From assembly GCA_030645235.1 (NCBI GenBank), contig JAUSMV010000012.1, forward strand, positions 186,001 to 250,000: 64,000 nt of DNA. Direction: 5' to 3'. The first letter of the stretch is position 1. Each line of letters opens with the position of its first letter. A program made the position numbers and the translations under genes. Below are positions 20,363-55,419 of the stretch, piece by piece. The notes under the pieces are model-generated. The model was not told the DNA's origin. It did not search any database and was given only the letters and a program-made list of their open reading frames with translations. The stretch comes from Parvibaculum sp. (GTDB lineage Bacteria > Pseudomonadota > Alphaproteobacteria > Parvibaculales > Parvibaculaceae).

Positions 20363-21769
20363 ATGTCAGCCAATTTAGCGGCCCTGCTTTATCTCGTCTC
20401 CGGCGTCCTGTTCATCATGGCGCTCAGAGGCCTCTCTTCTCCTGAAAGCTCACGCGGCGGCAACCGCTATGGCATGATCGGTATGACCATTGCCATTGTC
20501 ACAACACTCGCTGTGCTGCAGGCACAAAACGAAACCACATGGGCGCTTGTTGTCGTCGGTATTGTGATCGGCGGCGGCATCGGTGCCGTTGTCGCGCGCC
20601 GCATCGCGATGACATCCATGCCGCAGCTTGTGGCCTTCTTCCATTCGCTGGTCGGTCTCGCCGCCGTGCTCGTCGCCTGGGCCGCTTACTTCTCGCCCGC
20701 TGCTTACGGCATCGGTGAGTTCGGTGCGATCCATCCGGGCAATCTCGTGGAAATGTCGCTGGGTGTGGCCATCGGTGCCATCACCTTCTCCGGTTCCATC
20801 ATCGCGTTTGCGAAACTCAACGGCAATATGTCGGGCGCGTCCATCATGTTGCCGGGCCGTCACGTCATCAATGCGGCCCTCGGGCTCGCCATTGTCGGTG
20901 GTGTCGTTTACCTCTGCATGGATACGGCGAACCAATCGGTTGAACTCTTCCTCGCGATCACGCTTCTTGCCTTCGTGTTGGGCTTCCTCATCATCATCCC
21001 CATCGGCGGCGCAGACATGCCGGTCGTGGTGTCGATGCTGAATTCCTATTCCGGTTGGGCGGCGGCGGGCATCGGTTTCACGCTCGGCAATCTCGCGCTT
21101 ATCATCACGGGTGCGCTTGTGGGGTCATCGGGCGCGATCCTTTCCTACATTATGTGCAAAGGCATGAACCGCTCCTTCATCTCCGTCATTCTTGGCGGCT
21201 TCGGTGCGGATGCGGCGGCCGTTGGAAATGGCAAGGTCGAGACGCGTCCTGTGAAGCAGGGTTCGGCAGACGATGCTGCCTTCATCATGAAGAATGCCGG
21301 TTCTGTCATCATCGTGCCGGGCTACGGCATGGCGGTGGCGCAGGCCCAGCACGCGCTGAAAGAAATGACCGACCATTTGAAAAAAGAAGGCGTGAAAATT
21401 TCTTACGCCATTCATCCGGTCGCCGGTCGTATGCCCGGTCACATGAACGTGCTGCTCGCTGAAGCCAACGTGCCTTATGATGAAGTCTTCGAGCTTGAAG
21501 ACATCAACAACCAGTTCGCGCAGGCCGACGTTGCTTTCGTTATCGGAGCGAACGACGTGACAAACCCGTCAGCGAAGACGGACACATCAAGCCCGATTTA
21601 CGGCATGCCGATCCTCGACGTCGAGAAGGCCCGCACCGTCTTGTTCATCAAACGCGGCATGGGGTCAGGTTATGCCGGCGTCGAAAATGAACTCTTCTTC
21701 CGCGACAATACAATGATGCTTTTTGGCGACGCCAAGAAGATGGTCGAGCAGATTATTAAAGCTCTGTAA
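20363..21769 (+). CDS. pntB: NAD(P) transhydrogenase subunit beta
   Basis: A 468-residue protein. The first 280 residues hold about eight or nine transmembrane helices (domain II). The C-terminal 180 residues form the NADP(H)-binding domain III, with VIIVPGYGMAVAQAQHAL, IHPVAGRMPGHMNVLLAEA and FVIGANDVTNPSAKTD. It completes the transhydrogenase. It starts 12 bp after pntAB and ends the operon, with a terminator at 21790. Confidence 0.97.
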   Translation: MSANLAALLYLVSGVLFIMALRGLSSPESSRGGNRYGMIGMTIAIVTTLAVLQAQNETTWALVVVGIVIGGGIGAVVARRIAMTSMPQLVAFFHSLVGLAAVLVAWAAYFSPAAYGIGEFGAIHPGNLVEMSLGVAIGAITFSGSIIAFAKLNGNMSGASIMLPGRHVINAALGLAIVGGVVYLCMDTANQSVELFLAITLLAFVLGFLIIIPIGGADMPVVVSMLNSYSGWAAAGIGFTLGNLALIITGALVGSSGAILSYIMCKGMNRSFISVILGGFGADAAAVGNGKVETRPVKQGSADDAAFIMKNAGSVIIVPGYGMAVAQAQHALKEMTDHLKKEGVKISYAIHPVAGRMPGHMNVLLAEANVPYDEVFELEDINNQFAQADVAFVIGANDVTNPSAKTDTSSPIYGMPILDVEKARTVLFIKRGMGSGYAGVENELFFRDNTMMLFGDAKKMVEQIIKAL

Positions 21770-21915: not shown

Positions 21916-22115
21916 TATCCCCGCCCGGGGATTGTTTTTTGCGGGGATAATGTTCTGAACACGCAGAATATCCCCCATCGGGGATAGCCTTTTTTCCCCG
22001 ACCCTCAGAGGCTCATCGAAGCGACTAGCAATCTCTGCATGGAAACCTCGAATCTCTTGCAAGAAATGTTGACTGACACGTGTTGTTTTCGTGTCCGAAA
22101 ACCACTTATCCCCGC
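21916..22115 (+). repeat. 145-bp dispersed element, copy 2, with an extra palindrome
   Basis: The element proper runs from TATCCCC-CATC-GGGGATA (21969-21986), through the core with internal ATG at 22039 and TCTTGCAAGA, to TTATCCCCGC (22106-22115). Palindrome-to-ATG spacing is 53 nt and ATG-to-TATCCCC is 68 nt, as in the copy at 53 kb. Upstream is a further palindrome TATCCCC-GCCC-GGGGATT (21916-21933) and a half site at 21952. It fills the gap between the pnt operon and the DUF4345 gene. Confidence 0.85.
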
Positions 22116-22182: not shown

Positions 22183-22560
22183 ATGATTTGGGTTGCACGT
22201 ATCGGCGTCGCGTTGGCGGGTTTGTTTTCATTGCTCATGGGCGTTCAGGCATTCCTGACACCCGTTGAACTCGGGCAGATGCTCGGCCTCGCCGGGACGT
22301 CGCCGCTCGGTGAGAATGCGTTGCGCGCTGATATCGGCGCGTTTTTTCTCGCCAGTGCCATCGCTTGCATACTCGCGCTCTTTGCCAAACGTCCGCATTG
22401 GCTTTACGGCGCGGCGCTGCTTTACGGTCTCGCCGTGAGCGGACGATTGCTGGGTGTCATCGTTGAAGGCCCGCCTGCCGGTGTTGCTGTGCCGATGATC
22501 GTTGAAGCCGTGCTCGTCGTGCTTCTCGTCTTCGGTGCGAAGAAATTGCCTTCGGCTTGA
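22183..22560 (+). CDS. DUF4345-like small membrane protein
   Basis: A 125-residue integral membrane protein with four predicted helices: IGVALAGLFSLLMGVQAF, GAFFLASAIACILALF, WLYGAALLYGLAVSGRLLG and VPMIVEAVLVVLLVF. The pattern GENALRADIGAFFLA and ALLYGLAVSGRLLG recalls the DUF4345 family, whose function is unknown. It lies 7 bp upstream of the Rieske oxygenase start, suggesting co-transcription. Confidence 0.75.
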   Translation: MIWVARIGVALAGLFSLLMGVQAFLTPVELGQMLGLAGTSPLGENALRADIGAFFLASAIACILALFAKRPHWLYGAALLYGLAVSGRLLGVIVEGPPAGVAVPMIVEAVLVVLLVFGAKKLPSA

Positions 22561-32741: not shown

Positions 32742-32887
32742 GGGGATAGAGCGTGTTTTGGGCTCGAAAACAACACGTGTCACTCAACATTTCTTGCAAG
32801 AGATCGAGTGTTTCCATGCAGAGATCGTTAGTCGGTTCGTCGAGTGCGCGCGGCGCATGCGCGGCGCACTATCCCCACCCGGGGATA
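32742..32887 (-). repeat. 145-bp dispersed element, copy 3
   Basis: On minus the element runs TATCCCC-GGGT-GGGGATA (32887-32870), a 53-nt step to the internal ATG (32817), TCTTGCAAGA (32792-32801), and TATCCCC (32748-32742) after 69 nt. It shares ACACGTGTTGTTTTCG with copy 2. It lies in the 32657-33047 gap between the DUF465 and DUF2946 genes. Confidence 0.88.
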
Positions 32888-42602: not shown

Positions 42603-44525
42603 TCATTCTGTCTCGTCAATGATCCGTCGCAGGTGTTGCGCCAGTGCTGCTTTGCGATAGGGCTTGTGCAGCACTGCCGTGCCGATGTCTATGCGTCCGC
42701 GTGAGGTGAGTGCGTCGAGCGCATAGCCGGATGTCAGCAGCACTTTCAAATCCGGTCGGAGTTTTCGCGCGTGTTCGGTGAGTTCAAGCCCGTTCATGCC
42801 GCCGGGCATTACAATATCGGTGAACAGCACGTCGGGTTCGGAGCCCTGAGATAAAAGAGCGAGCGCCTCGTGTCCGCCGCTTGCTGAAATCACTTTGTAG
42901 CCGAGACTCTCGAGACAGGTGACGGCATAGGCCCGTACAAAATCATCGTCTTCGGCAATGAGAATGGTCTCGCGCCCGCCCGGTGTTTTCTCATTGTCGC
43001 GTCGGTGGAAATTCGTCTTGCCGTCTGCCTTGGTGATGGTCGATGGCAGATAGATGCGCACTGTCGTGCCAAGTCTCGGCTCGCTGTAGATGGAGACATG
43101 GCCGTTTGATTGTTTGACAAAGCCATAGACCATGCTGAGGCCAAGGCCGCTGCCTCTGCCGACTTCCTTTGTTGTGAAGAATGGCTCGAACACTTTTTTC
43201 AAAATGTCGGGCGGCATGCCTTCGCCTGTGTCTGTCACAGAGATCATGACATAATAGCCCGGCGGGACTTCGGGATTGGTGACTTGATACTGCTCATCAA
43301 GCGGCACGTTGGCCGTGCTGATGATGAGATTGCCGCCGTCCGGCATCGCATCCTGCGCATTGATGGTGAGGTTCAGGATGGCGGATTCAAGCTGTGACGG
43401 ATCGGCGAAGGCTGACCAGAGATCAGATTCCAACTCTGTTTTGATATTGATGTTCTCACGTAGTGTCCGCAGGAGCATCTGCTGCATTTCGTTGACGAGA
43501 TGATTGCAGTTCACCTCAACCGGCAAAAGGGTCTGGCGGCGACTGAAGGCAAGCAGGCGTTGTGTGAGTTCGGCGCCGCGTTCACCTGCAGCAATAATCA
43601 TGTCGATATAGCGCAGGAGATCGGGCCGCGGTTTTAACAGGTCTGAAATCGCTTCGGCATTGCCGATGATGACGGTCAGCAGATTGTTGAAGTCATGCGC
43701 GATGCCGCCTGAGAGCTGACCGACCGCTTCCATCTTTTGGGCTTGTACGAGCAATGCTTCTGATTGTTTGCGGCTCGTAAGATCATGAATGATGCCGACA
43801 AAGATCGATGCGCCGTCCTGCTTGGCTTCACCCACGGAGAGGTCCATCGGAAAGTTTGACCCGTCCTTGCGCAGTCCCTGAACTTCGCGACCGATGCCGA
43901 TGATCTTGCGCTCATGGGTGCGATGATAATTGGAGAGATAGCCGTCGTGTTCGCGTTGATAAGGTTGCGGCATCAGCATTTTGACATTTTTGCCGATCAC
44001 CTCCTCGTCCTTATAGCCAAAGAGCCGCTCGCAGGCCGGATTGAACATCAACACTGTGCCGCTATCGTCAATCAGGATGACGCCGTCAACGGCGGTTTCA
44101 ACGACGGCCTGCATGCGGGCGGCGGCTTCGCGAATGACTTTTTCGCTCCGTTCGCGTTCGGTCAGATCGTGAATGATGCCGACAAAGATTGAGGCGCCTT
44201 CTTGCTTGGCCTCGCCCACAGAGAGGTCCATCGGGAAGACCGACCGATCCTTGCGCTGTCCCTGCACTTTGCGACCAATGCCAATAATCTTGCGTGCGCC
44301 GGTGCGGTGATAGTTGCCGAGATAGCTATCGTGCTCGGATTGATAAGGATCAGGCATCAGCATTTTGACATTCTTGCCGATGACCTCATCGGAAGAGTAA
44401 CCAAAAAGCTTTTCGCAGGCCGGATTGAACATCAGGATATTGCCGACAGCGTCAATCAGAATGACGCCATCAACGGCTGTTTCAACAACAGCGCGTAGTC
44501 TTGCCTCTTCGCTGAATTCGACCAT
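42603..44525 (-). CDS. Hybrid histidine kinase with two FixL-like haem-PAS domains
   Basis: A 640-residue soluble sensor. Two near-duplicate PAS domains (10-122 and 136-250) each carry the FixL haem pocket: proximal His in the E-H-D-x-Y segment (His65, His193) and distal Arg in IIGIGR exactly 20 residues later (Arg85, Arg213), matching BjFixL His200/Arg220. Then come HisKA with GGIAHDFNNLL (His277), an HATPase domain, and a receiver (about 518-640) with Asp570 and Lys621. It probably senses O2 or NO and phosphorelays to its own receiver. No partner regulator is adjacent. There are no membrane segments. Confidence 0.92.
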   Translation of the reverse strand: MVEFSEEARLRAVVETAVDGVILIDAVGNILMFNPACEKLFGYSSDEVIGKNVKMLMPDPYQSEHDSYLGNYHRTGARKIIGIGRKVQGQRKDRSVFPMDLSVGEAKQEGASIFVGIIHDLTERERSEKVIREAAARMQAVVETAVDGVILIDDSGTVLMFNPACERLFGYKDEEVIGKNVKMLMPQPYQREHDGYLSNYHRTHERKIIGIGREVQGLRKDGSNFPMDLSVGEAKQDGASIFVGIIHDLTSRKQSEALLVQAQKMEAVGQLSGGIAHDFNNLLTVIIGNAEAISDLLKPRPDLLRYIDMIIAAGERGAELTQRLLAFSRRQTLLPVEVNCNHLVNEMQQMLLRTLRENINIKTELESDLWSAFADPSQLESAILNLTINAQDAMPDGGNLIISTANVPLDEQYQVTNPEVPPGYYVMISVTDTGEGMPPDILKKVFEPFFTTKEVGRGSGLGLSMVYGFVKQSNGHVSIYSEPRLGTTVRIYLPSTITKADGKTNFHRRDNEKTPGGRETILIAEDDDFVRAYAVTCLESLGYKVISASGGHEALALLSQGSEPDVLFTDIVMPGGMNGLELTEHARKLRPDLKVLLTSGYALDALTSRGRIDIGTAVLHKPYRKAALAQHLRRIIDETE

Positions 44526-47117: not shown

Positions 47118-47146
47118 TTGTCGCAGGCTTAACCTTTTGATAAATA
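47118..47146 (+). promoter_or_regulatory. Promoter of the candidate sRNA, with near-match CtrA site
   Basis: TTGTCG (47118-47123), a 17-nt spacer and TAAATA (47141-47146) form a plausible promoter. Within it TTAA-CCTTTTG-ATAA (47129-47143) is one base from the CtrA consensus TTAA-N7-TTAA. No other explanation is offered for this stretch. Confidence 0.5.
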
Positions 47147-47152
47147 TAGGAC

Positions 47153-47266
47153 TGCTAGGGTGACCTTGCGTAATCCAGTGTTCCTGGATTTCTGAGTGGT
47201 TCACTCCACTCTGTTTGACGCCTCCCTGTTAGAACTGAGCCGCGGTATTTCCGCGGCTCTTTTTTT
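47153..47266 (+). ncRNA. Candidate trans-acting small RNA of about 110 nt
   Basis: Between the DUF1192 gene and rcdA there is no open reading frame. Starting 6 to 10 nt after a plausible -10, three hairpins follow in order: AATCCAG/CTGGATT (7 bp, loop TGTTC), GAGTGG/CCACTC (6 bp) and GAGCCGCGG/CCGCGGCTC (9 bp, TATTT loop) followed by seven T residues. Single-stranded CGCCTCCCTG lies between the second and third hairpins and could pair with Shine-Dalgarno sequences. The CCUCCCU core is reminiscent of the alphaproteobacterial alpha-r8/mmgR sRNAs as I recall them. Confidence 0.6.
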
Positions 47267-50014: not shown

Positions 50015-51865
50015 ATGAGCGAAGCCTCAAATCCTGCCGTTGACGCCATCGAAGAAGAGGCCCAGCGCCGCAAACCGGCCAAGGCCGTCGGCCCGATTAT
50101 GAAGCTCGCGCCTTTCGTGGGCCGCTATAAGCCGATGATCGCGGCGGCTATCTTTTCGCTCATTCTGGCGACGCTTTCGACGCTGGCCTTTCCCATGGCC
50201 GGCGGTCGTTTGGTTGACATGCTCCGCAGCGAGCACGTGTCGGAGACCGGACATTTCATCAACCAGTATTTCCTCGCGCTCATTCTGGTGGCGCTTGTTC
50301 TTGGCGTGGCGTCGGCCTCGCGCTTTTATTTTGTGAGCTGGATCGGTGAGCGCGTCGTCGCGGATCTGCGCAATGCGGTCTATGCGCATGTGCTGAAACT
50401 CTCACCGTCCTTCTTTGAAATCACGCGCACCGGCGAAGTGCTTTCGCGCCTCACGGCTGACACGACACTCATCAAAACCGTCGTGGGATCGTCGGCCTCC
50501 ATTGCGCTGCGCAATGTGTTTCTCTTTATCGGTGCGGCTTTCATGATGGTCTATACGAGCCCGCATCTGTCGGGTCTCGTGCTGCTTGCCATTCCGATGA
50601 TCGTGTTGCCGCTTGTTATCTTTGGCCGTTGGGTGCGCCGACTGTCGCGCGCGAGCCAGGACCGCCTTGCCGATACATCGGCCTTCGGTTCGGAAAGCCT
50701 TAATGCCATTCAGACCGTGCAGGCCTTCACGCATGAAGAGCTTGACCGCAAATTCTTCTTCAACACGGTCGAGCGTTCGTTCGACACGGCCCGCTCACGC
50801 ATCGTTGCGCGGTCTGTTCTCACGGCCCTTGTGTTCTTTCTCGGTCTCACCAGTGTCGTCGGTGTGCTCTGGTTCGGCATGAGAGACGTGATGGCCGGTG
50901 AGATGACCGGCGGTCTTCTTGCGCAGTTCATTCTCTATGCGCTTTTTGCGGCGGGGTCATTGGCCGCGCTGTCTGAAGTCTGGGGCGATGTGCAAATGGC
51001 AGCAGGTGCCACAGAGCGTCTCATTGAACTTATCTCGACAGAGCCTGACATTGCCGCGCCTGCGCATCCCATCGCACTTCCTGTGCCTGCGCGCGGCGCG
51101 ATTGCTTTCGATAACATCACGTTTTCTTATCCGACGCGGCCTCACGCGGCGGCGCTCCATAATTTTTCGCTGCGCGTGGCGCCCGGTGAAACGGTTGCGA
51201 TTGTCGGCCCGTCAGGTGCGGGCAAAAGCACGGTGTTCCAATTGCTGCTGCGTTTTTATGATCCGCAGGCGGGTCACGTTTCGCTTGATGGTGTCAATGT
51301 TGCCGCCGCTGATCCGGTGGATGTGCGCCGCCGTCTCGCCGTTGTGCCGCAGGAGACGGTCGTGTTCGGCATGACCATCGGCGAGAACATTCGCTATGGC
51401 CGCCCCGGTGCTTCGGATGACGAAGTGCGCGCTGCGGCGGTTGCCGCGCGTATTGATGATTTCATTTGCTCGCTGCCGCTCGGTTATGACACGCAGGTCG
51501 GTGAGCGCGGCGTGACGCTTTCAGGTGGTCAGCGTCAGCGCATTGCCATTGCGCGTGCGATCTTACGTGATGCGCCTGTGTTGCTGCTTGATGAAGCGAC
51601 AAGTGCGCTTGATGCGGAAAGCGAAACGCTGGTGCAGGCCGCGCTTGAAGGTCTGATGCAGGGCCGCACAACGCTCGTCATCGCGCATCGCCTCGCCACT
51701 GTGCTCAAAGCCGATCGCATCATCGTCATGGAAGAGGGCCGCATTGTCGCAAGCGGTACGCATGATGAATTGATGAAGCAGGGCGGTCTCTATTCGCGTC
51801 TTGCGCGTCTGCAATTCACAGGCGACATTCTTGGCGGTGAAACTCAATCCGTCGCTCTCCACTAA
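50015..51865 (+). CDS. ABC exporter, fused permease-ATPase (MsbA/lipid exporter-like)
   Basis: A 616-residue half-transporter from ATG 50015 ([15 protein letters not shown]). Six transmembrane helices in residues 40-330 are followed by an ATPase domain: Walker A GPSGAGKS (398-405), Q-loop [10 protein letters not shown], signature LSGGQRQR, Walker [13 protein letters not shown] and H-loop VIAHRLATV. It would dimerise and export lipid or hydrophobic molecules. The nearest alphaproteobacterial group is generally next to rpmE, as here. The lactonase gene follows 22 bp later. Confidence 0.92.
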
Positions 51866-51887
51866 ACCCGTAAAAAGGATAAGCTCC

Positions 51888-52985
51888 ATGTCGAAACTCA
51901 AAGGCTGGCTCATCGTGGCAGGCATTCTCTGCCTTACCATGCTCAGCATTTTCACATGGCGCTTTCTTGCCGCGGCGGGATATTTCACCGCGATCAAACT
52001 TGAAGTGCCTGCCATCTGTTCGGTTGTGCCTTCGCCGCCCGGACCGGAAGATATTGAAGTTGACCGCGCGCGTGGTCTCGCTTTCGTTTCGGCCTCTGAT
52101 CGTCGTGCGCTGATGGCGGGTAACACAGCGGCGCGGGGCGGCATCTATGTGATCGATCTCACCGCGCCGTCTGAGCATTGGCAGTTGCGCCCCGTGACGG
52201 CGCAGGAGCCCGCTGATTTTCATCCGCACGGATTGTCGCTCTATACAGGTGCTGACGGTGCGCGTCGTTTGTTTGTCGTCAATCACCGCAGCGATAAGTC
52301 CCATTCGGTTGAGATTTTTGACGTTGCGGGTGATGGCAGTCTGACATTCGTACGCAGTGTGACCGATCCGCTTTTGATCTCGCCCAATGATGTTGTGGCT
52401 GTTGGTCCTGACAGTTTTTACGCCACCAATGATCACGGCACGGCGAACAAGACCAAGGCGATGCTTGATGATCTTCTTCTGTCGCTCAATTCCAATGTCG
52501 TTTATTTCGACGGTCAGAAAATGTCCGTCGCTGCAGGAAGTCTGAGCTTTGCCAATGGCATCAACAAAAGTGCTGATGGCAAAGTCATTTATGTCGCCGA
52601 GACAATGGGGCTGCGGCTGCACATCTATGATCGCGATGATGTGACGGGTGCGCTGGTGCCGAAAGATTCAACGCCGCTCGGCACGGGTCTCGACAATATC
52701 GATGTGCTTGATGACGGCGCGCTTCTCATCGCGGCGCATCCGAAAATCACATCCTTCATGTCGCATGCGGGCGATGCGGCTGAACTGTCGCCGTCGCAAG
52801 TGATCCGTGTTGAGCTTGATCCCAAAGGCGCGGGCGGCAAGGCCGGTACGATCTATCTCAACCTCGGTAAAGAAATTTCCGGCATCTCGGTTGCCGCCGG
52901 ATACCGCGATCTGATGCTGCTCGGCAATGTGTACCAGCCGAATATTCTGGTCTGTCAGCAGTCGAAAGTGATCAAGGGTTATTGA
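51888..52985 (+). CDS. Paraoxonase-like arylesterase/lactonase, membrane anchored
   Basis: A 365-residue protein from ATG 51888. A signal anchor (GWLIVAGILCLTMLSIFTWRF) is followed by a six-bladed beta-propeller like paraoxonase/SMP-30: GPEDIEVDRARGLAFVSASDRRA, FHPHGLSLY (candidate catalytic His), LISPNDVVAVGPDSFYATNDHG (calcium-binding Asn/Asp) and TGLDNIDVLDDGALLIAAHP. It probably hydrolyses lactones or aryl esters in the periplasm. An earlier in-frame ATG at 51801 would overlap the exporter gene. It is probably co-transcribed with the exporter. Confidence 0.85.
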   Translation: MSKLKGWLIVAGILCLTMLSIFTWRFLAAAGYFTAIKLEVPAICSVVPSPPGPEDIEVDRARGLAFVSASDRRALMAGNTAARGGIYVIDLTAPSEHWQLRPVTAQEPADFHPHGLSLYTGADGARRLFVVNHRSDKSHSVEIFDVAGDGSLTFVRSVTDPLLISPNDVVAVGPDSFYATNDHGTANKTKAMLDDLLLSLNSNVVYFDGQKMSVAAGSLSFANGINKSADGKVIYVAETMGLRLHIYDRDDVTGALVPKDSTPLGTGLDNIDVLDDGALLIAAHPKITSFMSHAGDAAELSPSQVIRVELDPKGAGGKAGTIYLNLGKEISGISVAAGYRDLMLLGNVYQPNILVCQQSKVIKGY

Positions 52986-53007: not shown

Positions 53008-53152
53008 GGGGATAAGGGAAAATGAAGCCCGACATCTGCTCGAAACACTCAACATTTCTTGCAAGAGATTGAGTGTTTCCATGCAGAGATCGCTAGTCGG
53101 TTCGTCGAGTGTTTGAGCGGAGGGCGCGGGCGCCTATCCCCGGTGGGGGATT
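53008..53152 (-). repeat. 145-bp dispersed element, copy 4
   Basis: On minus the element runs AATCCCC-CACC-GGGGATA (53152-53135), 53 nt to the internal ATG (53082), TCTTGCAAGA (53057-53066) and TATCCCC (53014-53008) after 68 nt. A perfect 10-bp inverted repeat AAACACTCAA/TTGAGTGTTT (53043-53052 and 53069-53078) encloses TCTTGCAAGA, showing that the core can fold into a hairpin. Confidence 0.88.
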
Positions 53153-53235
53153 GTTTTTGATTTTCGGGGACTTATCCCGCGAAAGTCATATTCAAGTGGG
53201 GATAGGGGGAAAAAATTATTTCCCCTCTTTTTGAA

Positions 53236-53429: not shown

Positions 53430-54434
53430 CTATCTCTCGGTGAGCTTGAATTCAATGCGGCGGTTGCGTTTGAGCGCTTCGGCTGATTTGCCTTTGTCGA
53501 GCGGTTGGAACTCACCGAAGCCGGCGGCGACCAAGTGCGAGGGCGCGACGCCTTCCTTCACCATGAAGTTCACGACCGCGATGGCGCGTGCGCTCGACAG
53601 ATACCAGTTGGAGGGATATTGCGCCGTCTTGATCGGGTTCACGTCCGTGTGGCCGTCGATGCGGATGACCCATGAAATATCGTCCGGGATCTGGCCCGCG
53701 ATTTCGCGTACGGCATCGGTGATCTTGCGCAACTGTTCGACGCCGGAGGGATTGAGATCAGCCGAGCCGGAGCTGAAGAGAATTTCGGATTGAATGACGA
53801 AGCGATCGCCAACAATTTCGATGTCGGGCCGATTGCCTAAAATCTCACGCAGGCGTCCGAAAAATTCCGAACGGTATTTGGCAAGCTCTTGTACCTTTTG
53901 GGCGAGGGCGGCGTTCAGGCGTTTGCCCAAATCAGCAATCTGCGCCTGACTTTCTTTGTCGCGCAGTTCTGACGCATCGAGGGCGGCTTCCAGCGTGGCG
54001 AGCTGGCGGCGCAGGGCCGAGATTTGCTGGTTGAGCAATTCGACCTGTGCGAGCGCCTCGTTTGAAATTTCTTTCTGCTTGGTCAGTTCGTCGGTGAGGA
54101 CCGCCATTTTGCCGCCGTCGCCTGCTGATGCGGCGAGCTTGTCTTTTTCGATGGTGGCTGCCACGAGGTCTGATTGCAGGCTCGCAATCATCGCCTGCAT
54201 GTCAGAATTTTCCTGTTTGGACAAAGCGAGCTGGCTCACAAGTTCGGCAAGCTGATTGCGCAGGCTATCGAGCGCGCTGTCCTTGCTTGAGACGAGTTGT
54301 GACAAGACAAACTGCGTCAGCATGAAAATCGTGATGAGGAAAATGAGGACGAGCAAGAGGCTCGACACGGCGTCCACAAAGCCCGGCCAATAGTCTCCGC
54401 CTGATTGCGTCCGCCTGCGTCTTGAATAGGCCAT
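53430..54434 (-). CDS. MotB-like protein with OmpA domain
   Basis: A 334-residue protein from ATG 54434 (MAYSRRRRTQSGG). One transmembrane helix at 22-45 (AVSSLLLVLIFLITIFML), a long coiled coil (50-195) and a C-terminal OmpA/MotB peptidoglycan domain (about 215-330) with ILFSSGSADLNPSG, VIRIDGHTDVNPI and RNRRIEFKLTER. It is the third gene of a trio with a MotA/ExbB-like channel; the gap is one base. It would anchor a proton-driven complex to peptidoglycan. No flagellar genes are nearby, so a flagellar stator role is unlikely. Confidence 0.9.
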   Translation of the reverse strand: MAYSRRRRTQSGGDYWPGFVDAVSSLLLVLIFLITIFMLTQFVLSQLVSSKDSALDSLRNQLAELVSQLALSKQENSDMQAMIASLQSDLVAATIEKDKLAASAGDGGKMAVLTDELTKQKEISNEALAQVELLNQQISALRRQLATLEAALDASELRDKESQAQIADLGKRLNAALAQKVQELAKYRSEFFGRLREILGNRPDIEIVGDRFVIQSEILFSSGSADLNPSGVEQLRKITDAVREIAGQIPDDISWVIRIDGHTDVNPIKTAQYPSNWYLSSARAIAVVNFMVKEGVAPSHLVAAGFGEFQPLDKGKSAEALKRNRRIEFKLTER

Positions 54435-54435
54435 G

Positions 54436-55419
54436 TTATTTGCCCAGGCGCGTGACGAGGCGCTCAAGCAGCGCTGAAATCGACGCCTGATTGTCCGCCA
54501 TGTTTTTGATGAGATGCTGTTCGTCGCGCAATTGTTCGGTGAGGGCCGCGATTTGCCCCGCAAGTGCCATGGTGGTGGCGTGATCGCCCCCACCTTTGGC
54601 AAGGGGGCCCGCCGCACCGCCGCCTGTCAGCGCCTGTTCGATGCGTTCGAGTTTTTTCATTGTGTCGCCGAGCATGCCGGGGCTGCGGTCAAAATCCTGA
54701 CTCAAGTCTGTGACGGTCGAGAGCCATTCTTCCAGTTCATTGTAAAAGCGGCTCTGCGCCTGTCCGGCCTGCAAATCGAGAAAGCCCAGAATGAGTGATC
54801 CGGCGAGACCAAAGAGGGAGGAGGAGAAGGATGTGCCCATGCCTGAAAGCGGACCTTCAAGCCCGGCCTTGAGGTTTTGAAAGACGACGACCGGATCACC
54901 GGCTTCAACGCTTAAGCCCCGGATCGTCTCGCCCACTGATGTGACTGTGGTGATGAGACCCCAGAATGTGCCAAGGAGGCCGAGGAAGACAAGGAGGCCG
55001 ATCATGTAGCGCGAAATTTCGCGGCTTTCATCGAGACGCGAGCCGATACTGTCGAGGATTGAGCGCATTGAGAGGGCATTCAATTGCATCCGTCCGCGCC
55101 GGTCACTCAACATTGTCGCCATGGGGGCGAGCATCACAGGCGGGTTTGAATGTCCCAGGCCCGGATCGGCGCGGCGAAAATTGTTTACCCAGCGCACTTC
55201 GGGGCGTAGCCTCATCACCTGCTGATAAGCATAGAGAATGCCGAAAATCAGTACAAAGATGATGAGACCGTTGAGGCCCGGATTGGCAAAGAAGGCCTTC
55301 TGCAATTGCGGCAGAAGCACTGCCAGCACGAGGCTGACAAGTACCAGAAAGATGCTCATGCGCGTGAGATAGGGCCGGGCATTGGAAAGGGCGGTGCCCT
55401 CGGTGAAGTCCTTGGTCAT
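54436..55419 (-). CDS. MotA/TolQ/ExbB-family proton-channel protein
   Basis: A 327-residue protein from ATG 55419 (MTKDFTEGTALSN). Four helices are visible at about 22-37, 48-66, 138-160 (YMIGLLVFLGLLGTFWGLI) and 196-216 (SSSLFGLAGSLILGFL), with a cytoplasmic loop of about 70 residues between helices 2 and 3. A C-terminal helical tail follows to 327. It is the MotA_ExbB domain that pairs with the MotB-like protein downstream and is 4 bp after the OmpA-like gene. The substrate or effector is unknown. Confidence 0.9.
   Translation of the reverse strand: MTKDFTEGTALSNARPYLTRMSIFLVLVSLVLAVLLPQLQKAFFANPGLNGLIIFVLIFGILYAYQQVMRLRPEVRWVNNFRRADPGLGHSNPPVMLAPMATMLSDRRGRMQLNALSMRSILDSIGSRLDESREISRYMIGLLVFLGLLGTFWGLITTVTSVGETIRGLSVEAGDPVVVFQNLKAGLEGPLSGMGTSFSSSLFGLAGSLILGFLDLQAGQAQSRFYNELEEWLSTVTDLSQDFDRSPGMLGDTMKKLERIEQALTGGGAAGPLAKGGGDHATTMALAGQIAALTEQLRDEQHLIKNMADNQASISALLERLVTRLGK

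Follow-up and report, generated by a model that had tools for sequence, protein, structure and literature searches.

We studied a repeated element in the Parvibaculum genome G000 (3.83 Mb), starting from a window of 64 kb. A sequence-only reading of the window had described a dispersed unit of 145 bp resembling MITE or REP sequences.

Copies in the window

The three full copies that had been reported proved real, with positions and lengths as described (145, 146 and 145 bp, on strands +, - and -, respectively). The dyad TATCCCC-N4-GGGGATA, said to be common to all of them, was exact in two copies and one base off (GGGGATT) in the third. Allowing up to three mismatches, the dyad had five matches in the window against 1.05 expected, and none of 100 shuffles reached five. 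The word TCTTGCAAGA occurred four times, always exactly; at one mismatch 16 of 100 shuffles reached four, and taken alone the word is not significant. The observation rests instead on longer stretches of 57-125 nt shared among the copies, 78-96% identical or complementary. The features are listed below; the core is a fragment of the host gene uup (see below), an origin missed by the sequence-only reading, which had noted its conservation.

21969-22113, + strand: site copy 1 (dyad, spacer, core, tail and 3' TATCCCC box), G000:C55:208017; neighbours, a PNTB gene (20363-21769, +) and a DUF4345 gene (22183-22560, +)
21969-21986, + strand: dyad of copy 1, TATCCCC-CATC-GGGGATA
22009-22068, + strand: uup-derived core of copy 1
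22107-22113, + strand: 3' TATCCCC box of copy 1
21916-21933, + strand: extra dyad upstream of copy 1, TATCCCCGCCCGGGGATT
21943-21949, + strand: extra GGGGATA box upstream of copy 1
32742-32887, - strand: site copy 2, G000:C55:218740
32788-32844, - strand: uup-derived core of copy 2
32870-32887, no strand assigned: dyad of copy 2
53008-53152, - strand: site copy 3, G000:C55:239046; neighbours convergent, an Arylesterase-domain ORF (51801-52985, +) and an OmpA-domain ORF (53430-54617, -)
53053-53114, - strand: uup-derived core of copy 3
53135-53152, no strand assigned: dyad of copy 3, one mismatch
53198-53204, + strand: extra GGGGATA box beyond copy 3
567-628, + strand: fourth copy, core only, dyad missing at the usual place, C55:186563; its counterpart in the sister species G003 is locus L206

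Elsewhere in the window, two 300-nt direct repeats, 78% identical and spaced 384 nt, occupy 43766-44449 and probably represent a repeated protein domain.

Genome-wide family and anatomy of a site

A sequence-only profile made from 35 copies was run on G000; of its 1164 first-look candidates 150 were scored, giving at least 115 matches at E<=1. Ninety-seven matches had E<1e-5 and corresponded to 96 distinct sites, the one in uup included; the further copies with the same spacing foreseen by the earlier reading were found as a dispersed family with fixed internal spacing. Positions are counted here from the A of ATGGAAAC. A dyad ATCC(C/T)C-N4-G(A/G)GGAT was present in 73 of 92 copies and started at -69 in 59 of these, which is likewise its distance in uup. 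Other words also had preferred places: CTCGA at -27 (44 of 92 copies), +9 (54), +8 (24) and -6 (17); TCGAG at +39 (34 of 92) and +50 (13), and also at +61 in G003, whose zero point is one base off in this count; and the candidate terminal-repeat words G(A/G)GGAT at -59 (55 of 92) and ATCC(C/T)C at +69 (21 of 92) or +70 (9 of 92). Among the 38 best-scoring copies, which were selected by core similarity, pairwise identity was 0.84 in the core and 0.45 in the spacer between dyad and core (random 0.26), and mean identity to uup was 0.87 and 0.33, respectively.

The site extends beyond 145 bp, as GGGGATA/TATCCCC boxes are concentrated on both sides of the core, between about -350 and +140. Counted in 50-bp bins around 91 copies, GGGGATA-type boxes reached 10-15 per kb within ~150 bp of the core and fell to 0-0.7 per kb outward from ~400 bp upstream and 150 bp downstream. 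The sequence GGGGATAG was found 82 times upstream of cores and never in the background (the expectation of 0.08 is a pseudocount), and by eye the boxes also gather around copies inside genes. Avoidance of GGGGATA elsewhere in the genome was rejected (10 observed, 6.9 expected), as were clusters of DnaA boxes, TTATCCACA being present at 0.02 per kb near the G000 sites and 0.01 per kb far from them.

Two variants were noticed. A 21-bp unit within the core is tandemly duplicated (CTCGATCTCTGCATGGAAACA / CTCGATCTCTTGCAAGAAACA) at G000:C58:1282257-1282386, C58:1437264-1437337 and C55:726062-726136. A subfamily that is distinct by eye mostly carries CTATCCCC-(A/G)CCTGA(T/G)TATTTC, often with AACGAAAAACCAACGATCTC and a TTGATGGATAA tail (G000:C58 670200, 1125932, 600797, 417308 and 50699; C55 639150; C36 28020).

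uup as the source of the core

The core of ~60 bp is a piece of the host uup gene and in frame reads LDEPTNDLDMETLDLLQEML. One site of the family lies inside an ORF of 609 aa encoding an ABC-F ATPase, presumably of the Uup subtype; Pfam ABC_tran and ABC_tran_CTD matched its last 443 aa, and LDEPTNDLDMETLDLLQEML is presumably the Walker-B/D-loop stretch. This peptide was identical in four of the five other genus members compared (G003, G022, G012 and G001), G008 differing at a few residues. Because only G003 among the members compared is known to have the family, uup is its source and not a target.

The majority base of the G000 copies was the uup base at 18 of 19 positions from -28 to -9, 22 of 24 from -9 to 15 and 15 of 15 from 15 to 30. 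Through the DEPTND codons the match with uup extended over 18 of 19 positions in G000 and 10 of 19 in G003; therefore, in G000 the sequence flowed from uup to the copies, a movement that would demand templated copying. The 24-nt stretch between dyad and core differed from uup (5 of 22 majority bases; 0.33 identity, near the random 0.26), and at position -2 just 27 of 91 G000 copies had the uup base, 62 having G. No extra synonymous constraint was detected in the uup core (0.58 versus 0.59).

Fixed positions and a concerted core in the sister species

In G003, the closest relative (88% identity in uup), a related family occurs whose core is particular to that species, approximately CCTCGACATGGAAACACTCGAATTC.GACAGGAAAACCTCGG (33 matches at E<0.1). 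The sites keep their positions between the two species: a G003 query gave 29 loci (L194-L223, uup left out; two are one site, and some are weak matches), 27 of which had flanks that matched those of a G000 copy, and the G000 loci span, by arithmetic, ~8% of the genome. As read from the table, 21 of 26 pairs, one of them uup, had the same orientation in both species, and their distances to the flanking genes agreed to within ~140 bp. The five others (L176, L189, L191, L195 and L209) were discordant in offset or orientation; for L176, the HemK locus, the G000 copy is not among the 92 used.

Core identity, averaged over all 26 pairs with the discordant ones taken in, was 0.62 for orthologous copies, 0.61 for non-orthologous copies across species, 0.79 within G000 and 0.69 within G003; the within-species values are inflated by the choice of copies through core words or core scores (in G003 the exact word TCGACATGGAA, for both box and identity counts), and in the pair-identity and box counts the G003 positions are shifted by one base. 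Tail identity was 0.58 for orthologous and 0.48 for non-orthologous copies, and in the upstream zone orthologous copies reached 0.54, the other values for the two zones ranging from 0.47 to 0.50. The tail and upstream zone follow orthology and the core does not; the flanks thus still show common descent, of which the core has lost the trace.

From -16 to +32 the two uup genes differ at nine positions. Bases of the species' own uup outnumbered those of the other uup at all nine in the G000 copies and at eight in the G003 copies (one of them by 8 to 7), the G003 zero point being right in this comparison. The exception was +17, where 20 of 25 G003 copies had the G000 base. Outside the core there were five differing positions, and the rule held at three of them in G000 and four in G003.

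Copies inside genes: replacement and addition

All copies of the window lie between genes, as had been claimed, and this did not extend to the whole genome: by a crude gene call nine of 92 copies, uup included, were in genes, and weaker copies outside this set were located in HemK-, QueD- and AddB-like genes. The names HemK/PrmC, TlyA, QueD, SDR, AddB, SpoU, PBP1C, RimP and saccharopine dehydrogenase were assigned from motifs and are presumptive. Among the 25 genus genomes with a PrmC/HemK gene (27 searched), only G000 and G003 had it overwritten by the site, reading GNDLDMETLNLAQENA and GIDLDMETLEIAQENA, respectively; the pattern LDMETL..AQENA was confined to these two, and the other 23 genomes had forms such as GVDISPEALKVAERNA, with no gap. 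Length at the site was also equal in QueD (against G003 and G001), in SDR and AddB-2 (against G003) and in the saccharopine-dehydrogenase-like protein. Additions in G000 that are missing in G003 were found in TlyA (7 aa) and AddB-1 (18 aa); SpoU and PBP1C showed length differences of a few residues at the site, and alignment of RimP across the site was not achieved. The copies occur in both sense and antisense of genes, which points to a role of DNA and not of RNA.

Comparison of orthologous intergenic regions, proposed by the sequence-only reading as a check on mobility, cut both ways. Gaps were clearly longer than in the outgroup G001 in four of eight comparable cases (one measured 268 bp in G000, 3 bp in G001 and 183 bp in G003), in favour of insertion; the positions common to the sister species spoke against a mobile element. 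Equal-length sites on the one hand and longer genes and gaps on the other mean that replacement and addition both occur.

Chromosomal placement

With gene calls from a home-made hexamer score, 83 of 92 copies were intergenic. Convergent junctions held 45 of the 81 copies with both neighbours, and among 51 further gaps taken from these loci six were convergent (P=4e-7). The copies were also evenly spaced: on four large contigs the mean distance was 31-39 kb with coefficients of variation of 0.41-0.63, and the overall coefficient was 0.585 against 0.94 under a null of uniform placement alone, none of 4000 simulations being as low. With two sites 828 bp apart counted as one, there were 90 spacings, of which none was below 5 kb (~12 expected by arithmetic) and seven were below 10 kb (21.8 expected).

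Such regularity would suit nucleoprotein sites for chromosome organisation or segregation, where a protein of the clade would bind boxes and core and the motif would co-evolve with the protein. The preferred distances of the dyad (-69), CTCGA (-27, -6, +8/+9) and TCGAG (+39, +50, and +61 in G003) are consistent with this, as is the DNA-level role suggested by sense and antisense copies in genes. It leaves unexplained, however, the identity of the G000 consensus with ~60 nt of uup coding sequence, and no factor was found among the candidates looked for; we regard this explanation as clearly unlikely.

Distribution in other genomes

The dyad pattern had 86 matches in G000 against six for the reversed pattern. 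In the 26 other genomes of the genus it had 1 to 17 matches, most of them near the reversed-pattern control; G026 (17 versus 4), G017 (14 versus 3), and G003 and G007 (11 versus 3) were above control, all far below 86. A search with the G000 core gave a match in 15 of 146 genomes, G000 included, and eleven loci from it (L062-L072) all aligned to the Uup protein (31-88% identity). Few candidates per genome were scored in this search, which brought up one match in G003 where dozens are present, so diverged families may exist elsewhere. Twenty-two stretches carried an exact 18-mer, and 11 of these belonged to a single Parvibaculum MAG, probably G003. Thirty G001 loci, retrieved with anchors taken from the G000 flanks, shared no long word; repeat hits on one anchor make these fewer than 30 distinct sites, and the G003 comparison set also holds some sites twice. 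The family has so far been seen only in the G000 species and its sister G003, its absence from other genus members being tested directly in G001 and read elsewhere from the dyad count and the HemK site.

Mobile-element, RNA and foreign-origin tests

What stands of the earlier suggestion of a MITE-like or REP-like mobile element is the dispersed family, its fixed internal spacing and the four of eight gaps longer than in the outgroup; no Y1_Tnp/RAYT gene was found in G000 or G003, the palindrome arms lacked covariation, the sister species shares the positions, and several copies replace coding sequence without insertion. MITEs are short, non-coding, mostly intergenic and have inverted ends; the sites are likewise short, non-coding and mostly intergenic, with candidate inverted ends in part of the copies. 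The conserved positions and orientation and the in-place replacement at several sites set them apart. A MITE-like element that had picked up a piece of uup, multiplied in the common ancestor of G000 and G003 and since become immobile would account for the gaps clearly shorter in G001 (four of eight), the inverted GGGGATA/TATCCCC boxes and the intergenic majority (83 of 92). We consider it improbable in view of the length-preserving copies in HemK, QueD, SDR, AddB-2 and the saccharopine-dehydrogenase-like gene, the core that changes in concert and not by descent, and the Y1 transposase not found in G000 and G003.

Y1_Tnp (PF01797) had no match at E<=0.001 in G000 or in G003 (92% complete); it matched in one of 27 genus genomes, G019, whose dyad count was at control level. 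REPIN or REP sequences moved by a RAYT transposase would share the short inverted boxes, the extragenic bias and the species-specific sequence of the sites. With no RAYT found in either species and the only PF01797 match in G019, this explanation was rejected as scarcely credible.

No covariation of the dyad arms was found in 73 copies. One dyad pair was C-A in 28 of them, i.e., the arms are not perfected, and quasi-palindrome correction was rejected as the origin of the dyad. The best core pair reached a covariation z of 2.7, uncorrected, and RNAalifold gave four pairs over 125 columns. Against shuffles, 45 copies folded on the forward strand with mean z of -0.8 (core and tail), -1.6 (dyad to tail), -2.0 (upstream) and -0.4 (control), a surplus that inverted boxes can explain without covariation. 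A structured RNA element or 3'-UTR regulator would agree with this somewhat better folding; the four RNAalifold pairs, the missing arm covariation, the sense and antisense copies and the lack of any Rfam match above gathering score at the window copies led us to reject it as very improbable. The sole Rfam match in the window was the alphaproteobacterial sRNA BjrC1505 at 47122-47266 (+; 68.4 bits, gathering score 50).

A phage or plasmid origin was rejected, one 261-nt query each, from one copy, giving no match; viral contigs had no exact match to one 25-mer pattern, and ten single 16-mer matches were taken for chance. A reverse transcriptase as shared engine was also rejected, with two RVT_1 matches in G000 and none in G003. 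One of the two (L316:1327-2271, G000:C55 ~455.6 kb) is a 314-aa reverse transcriptase best fitted by the PADLOC type VI retron RT model (E 1e-74), and the profile matches included no family copy at this locus; the other, G000:C33:325-780 (L322), lies in an ORF of 500 aa.

Proposed copying and maintenance of the sites

Sequence flow, fixed positions and fixed block distance need to be explained jointly, and we therefore favour, tentatively, sites that matter as DNA: templated copying from uup would have seeded them and would keep re-homogenising them, and selection or a transfer-type drive would preserve them. The core would have been copied from the host uup in the G000/G003 ancestor, and the copies would since have been re-homogenised within each species along with uup, by putative gene conversion or templated copying of tracts some tens of bases long. 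Selection or drive on DNA, as with DNA-uptake-sequence dialects, would keep the sites at ~35 kb intervals; positions that stay, and two conserved blocks at a fixed distance across an unconserved spacer, suggest as much. With the same reserve, we see the sites not as independent transposon insertions but as a positionally fixed family of ~96 multi-box DNA sites.

Some observations fit templated copying with DNA-level maintenance less well. Among the candidates looked for in G000 and G003 (RAYT, reverse transcriptase) no trans-acting factor was identified; a DNA-binding or DNA-transfer factor, like any function, is putative. Insertion also occurs (four of eight gaps, 7 aa in TlyA, 18 aa in AddB), the uup-unlike 24 nt between dyad and core would not be predicted by contiguous conversion alone, and the uup core is free of extra synonymous constraint. 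The bases at -2 and +17 also deviate, as do the failures of the own-uup rule outside the core (two of five in G000, one of five in G003).

A purely mutational process would require no function: at stalled forks or post-replication gaps, mostly near convergent junctions, template switching would repeatedly copy the uup segment into partly similar sequence, and the sites would be its scars. Own-uup bases in core copies, in-place replacements with in-frame additions, and the convergent bias all agree with it; we nevertheless find it somewhat unlikely, as conserved positions, even spacing, the fixed 69-bp dyad distance across an unconserved spacer and boxes over ~400 bp would be left unexplained. 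E. coli Uup is reported to act on branched DNA when templates are switched (PMC7470958). This role next to a uup-derived core is notable and may be a coincidence.

Relation to known systems

Uptake signals are evenly spaced, and a DNA uptake sequence is a short word in hundreds to thousands of copies. The present sites differ in having a ~60-bp core with boxes over ~400 bp, at 96 sites ~35 kb apart, and a core copied from a housekeeping gene; the likeness to uptake signals lies in sequence and placement. Species dialects with intragenic copies were found here, and a short word in hundreds to thousands of copies was not. As outlined by Frye et al. 2013 (PMC3630211), uptake sequences of the Neisseriaceae share with our sites the species dialects, intragenic copies in permissive regions and inverted intergenic pairs, and such dialects serve as the nearest working model. 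Extending it, the sites could be start or recognition sites of a putative DNA-transfer system of the clade (transfer, packaging or uptake): the uup segment would have become the recognition sequence, and biased transfer would have driven copies to ~35 kb intervals, recoding host genes and changing dialect per species. We consider this decidedly unlikely.

REPIN/RAYT populations, as outlined in PMC8049555, are likewise persistent intragenomic sequence populations with inverted boxes; here no RAYT was found, the core is homogenised in place and some copies replace codons. The Wolbachia palindromic elements also place repeated palindromic DNA inside reading frames, but the account in PMC4224334 describes them as insertions, whereas several of our sites replace codons with length unchanged. 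In the concerted evolution of prokaryotic paralogues, too, copies within a species are more similar than orthologous copies; in the present case the converging sequences are short non-genic segments and parts of unrelated genes, and not gene duplicates. No described equivalent of such a site family was found in the literature, as judged on titles and abstract openings, and the part consulted of the P. lavamentivorans genome paper (PMC3368416) mentions just a CRISPR.

If true, bacteria would have a molecular drive of a new kind, in which a segment of a housekeeping gene has spread to ~100 fixed places, evolves within each lineage together with the gene it came from and alters codons in conserved genes unrelated to it. 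Whether DNA words can be imposed on coding sequence by template switching, by gene conversion or by biased DNA transfer thus becomes open to test, and the sister genomes G000 and G003 offer a ready comparison.
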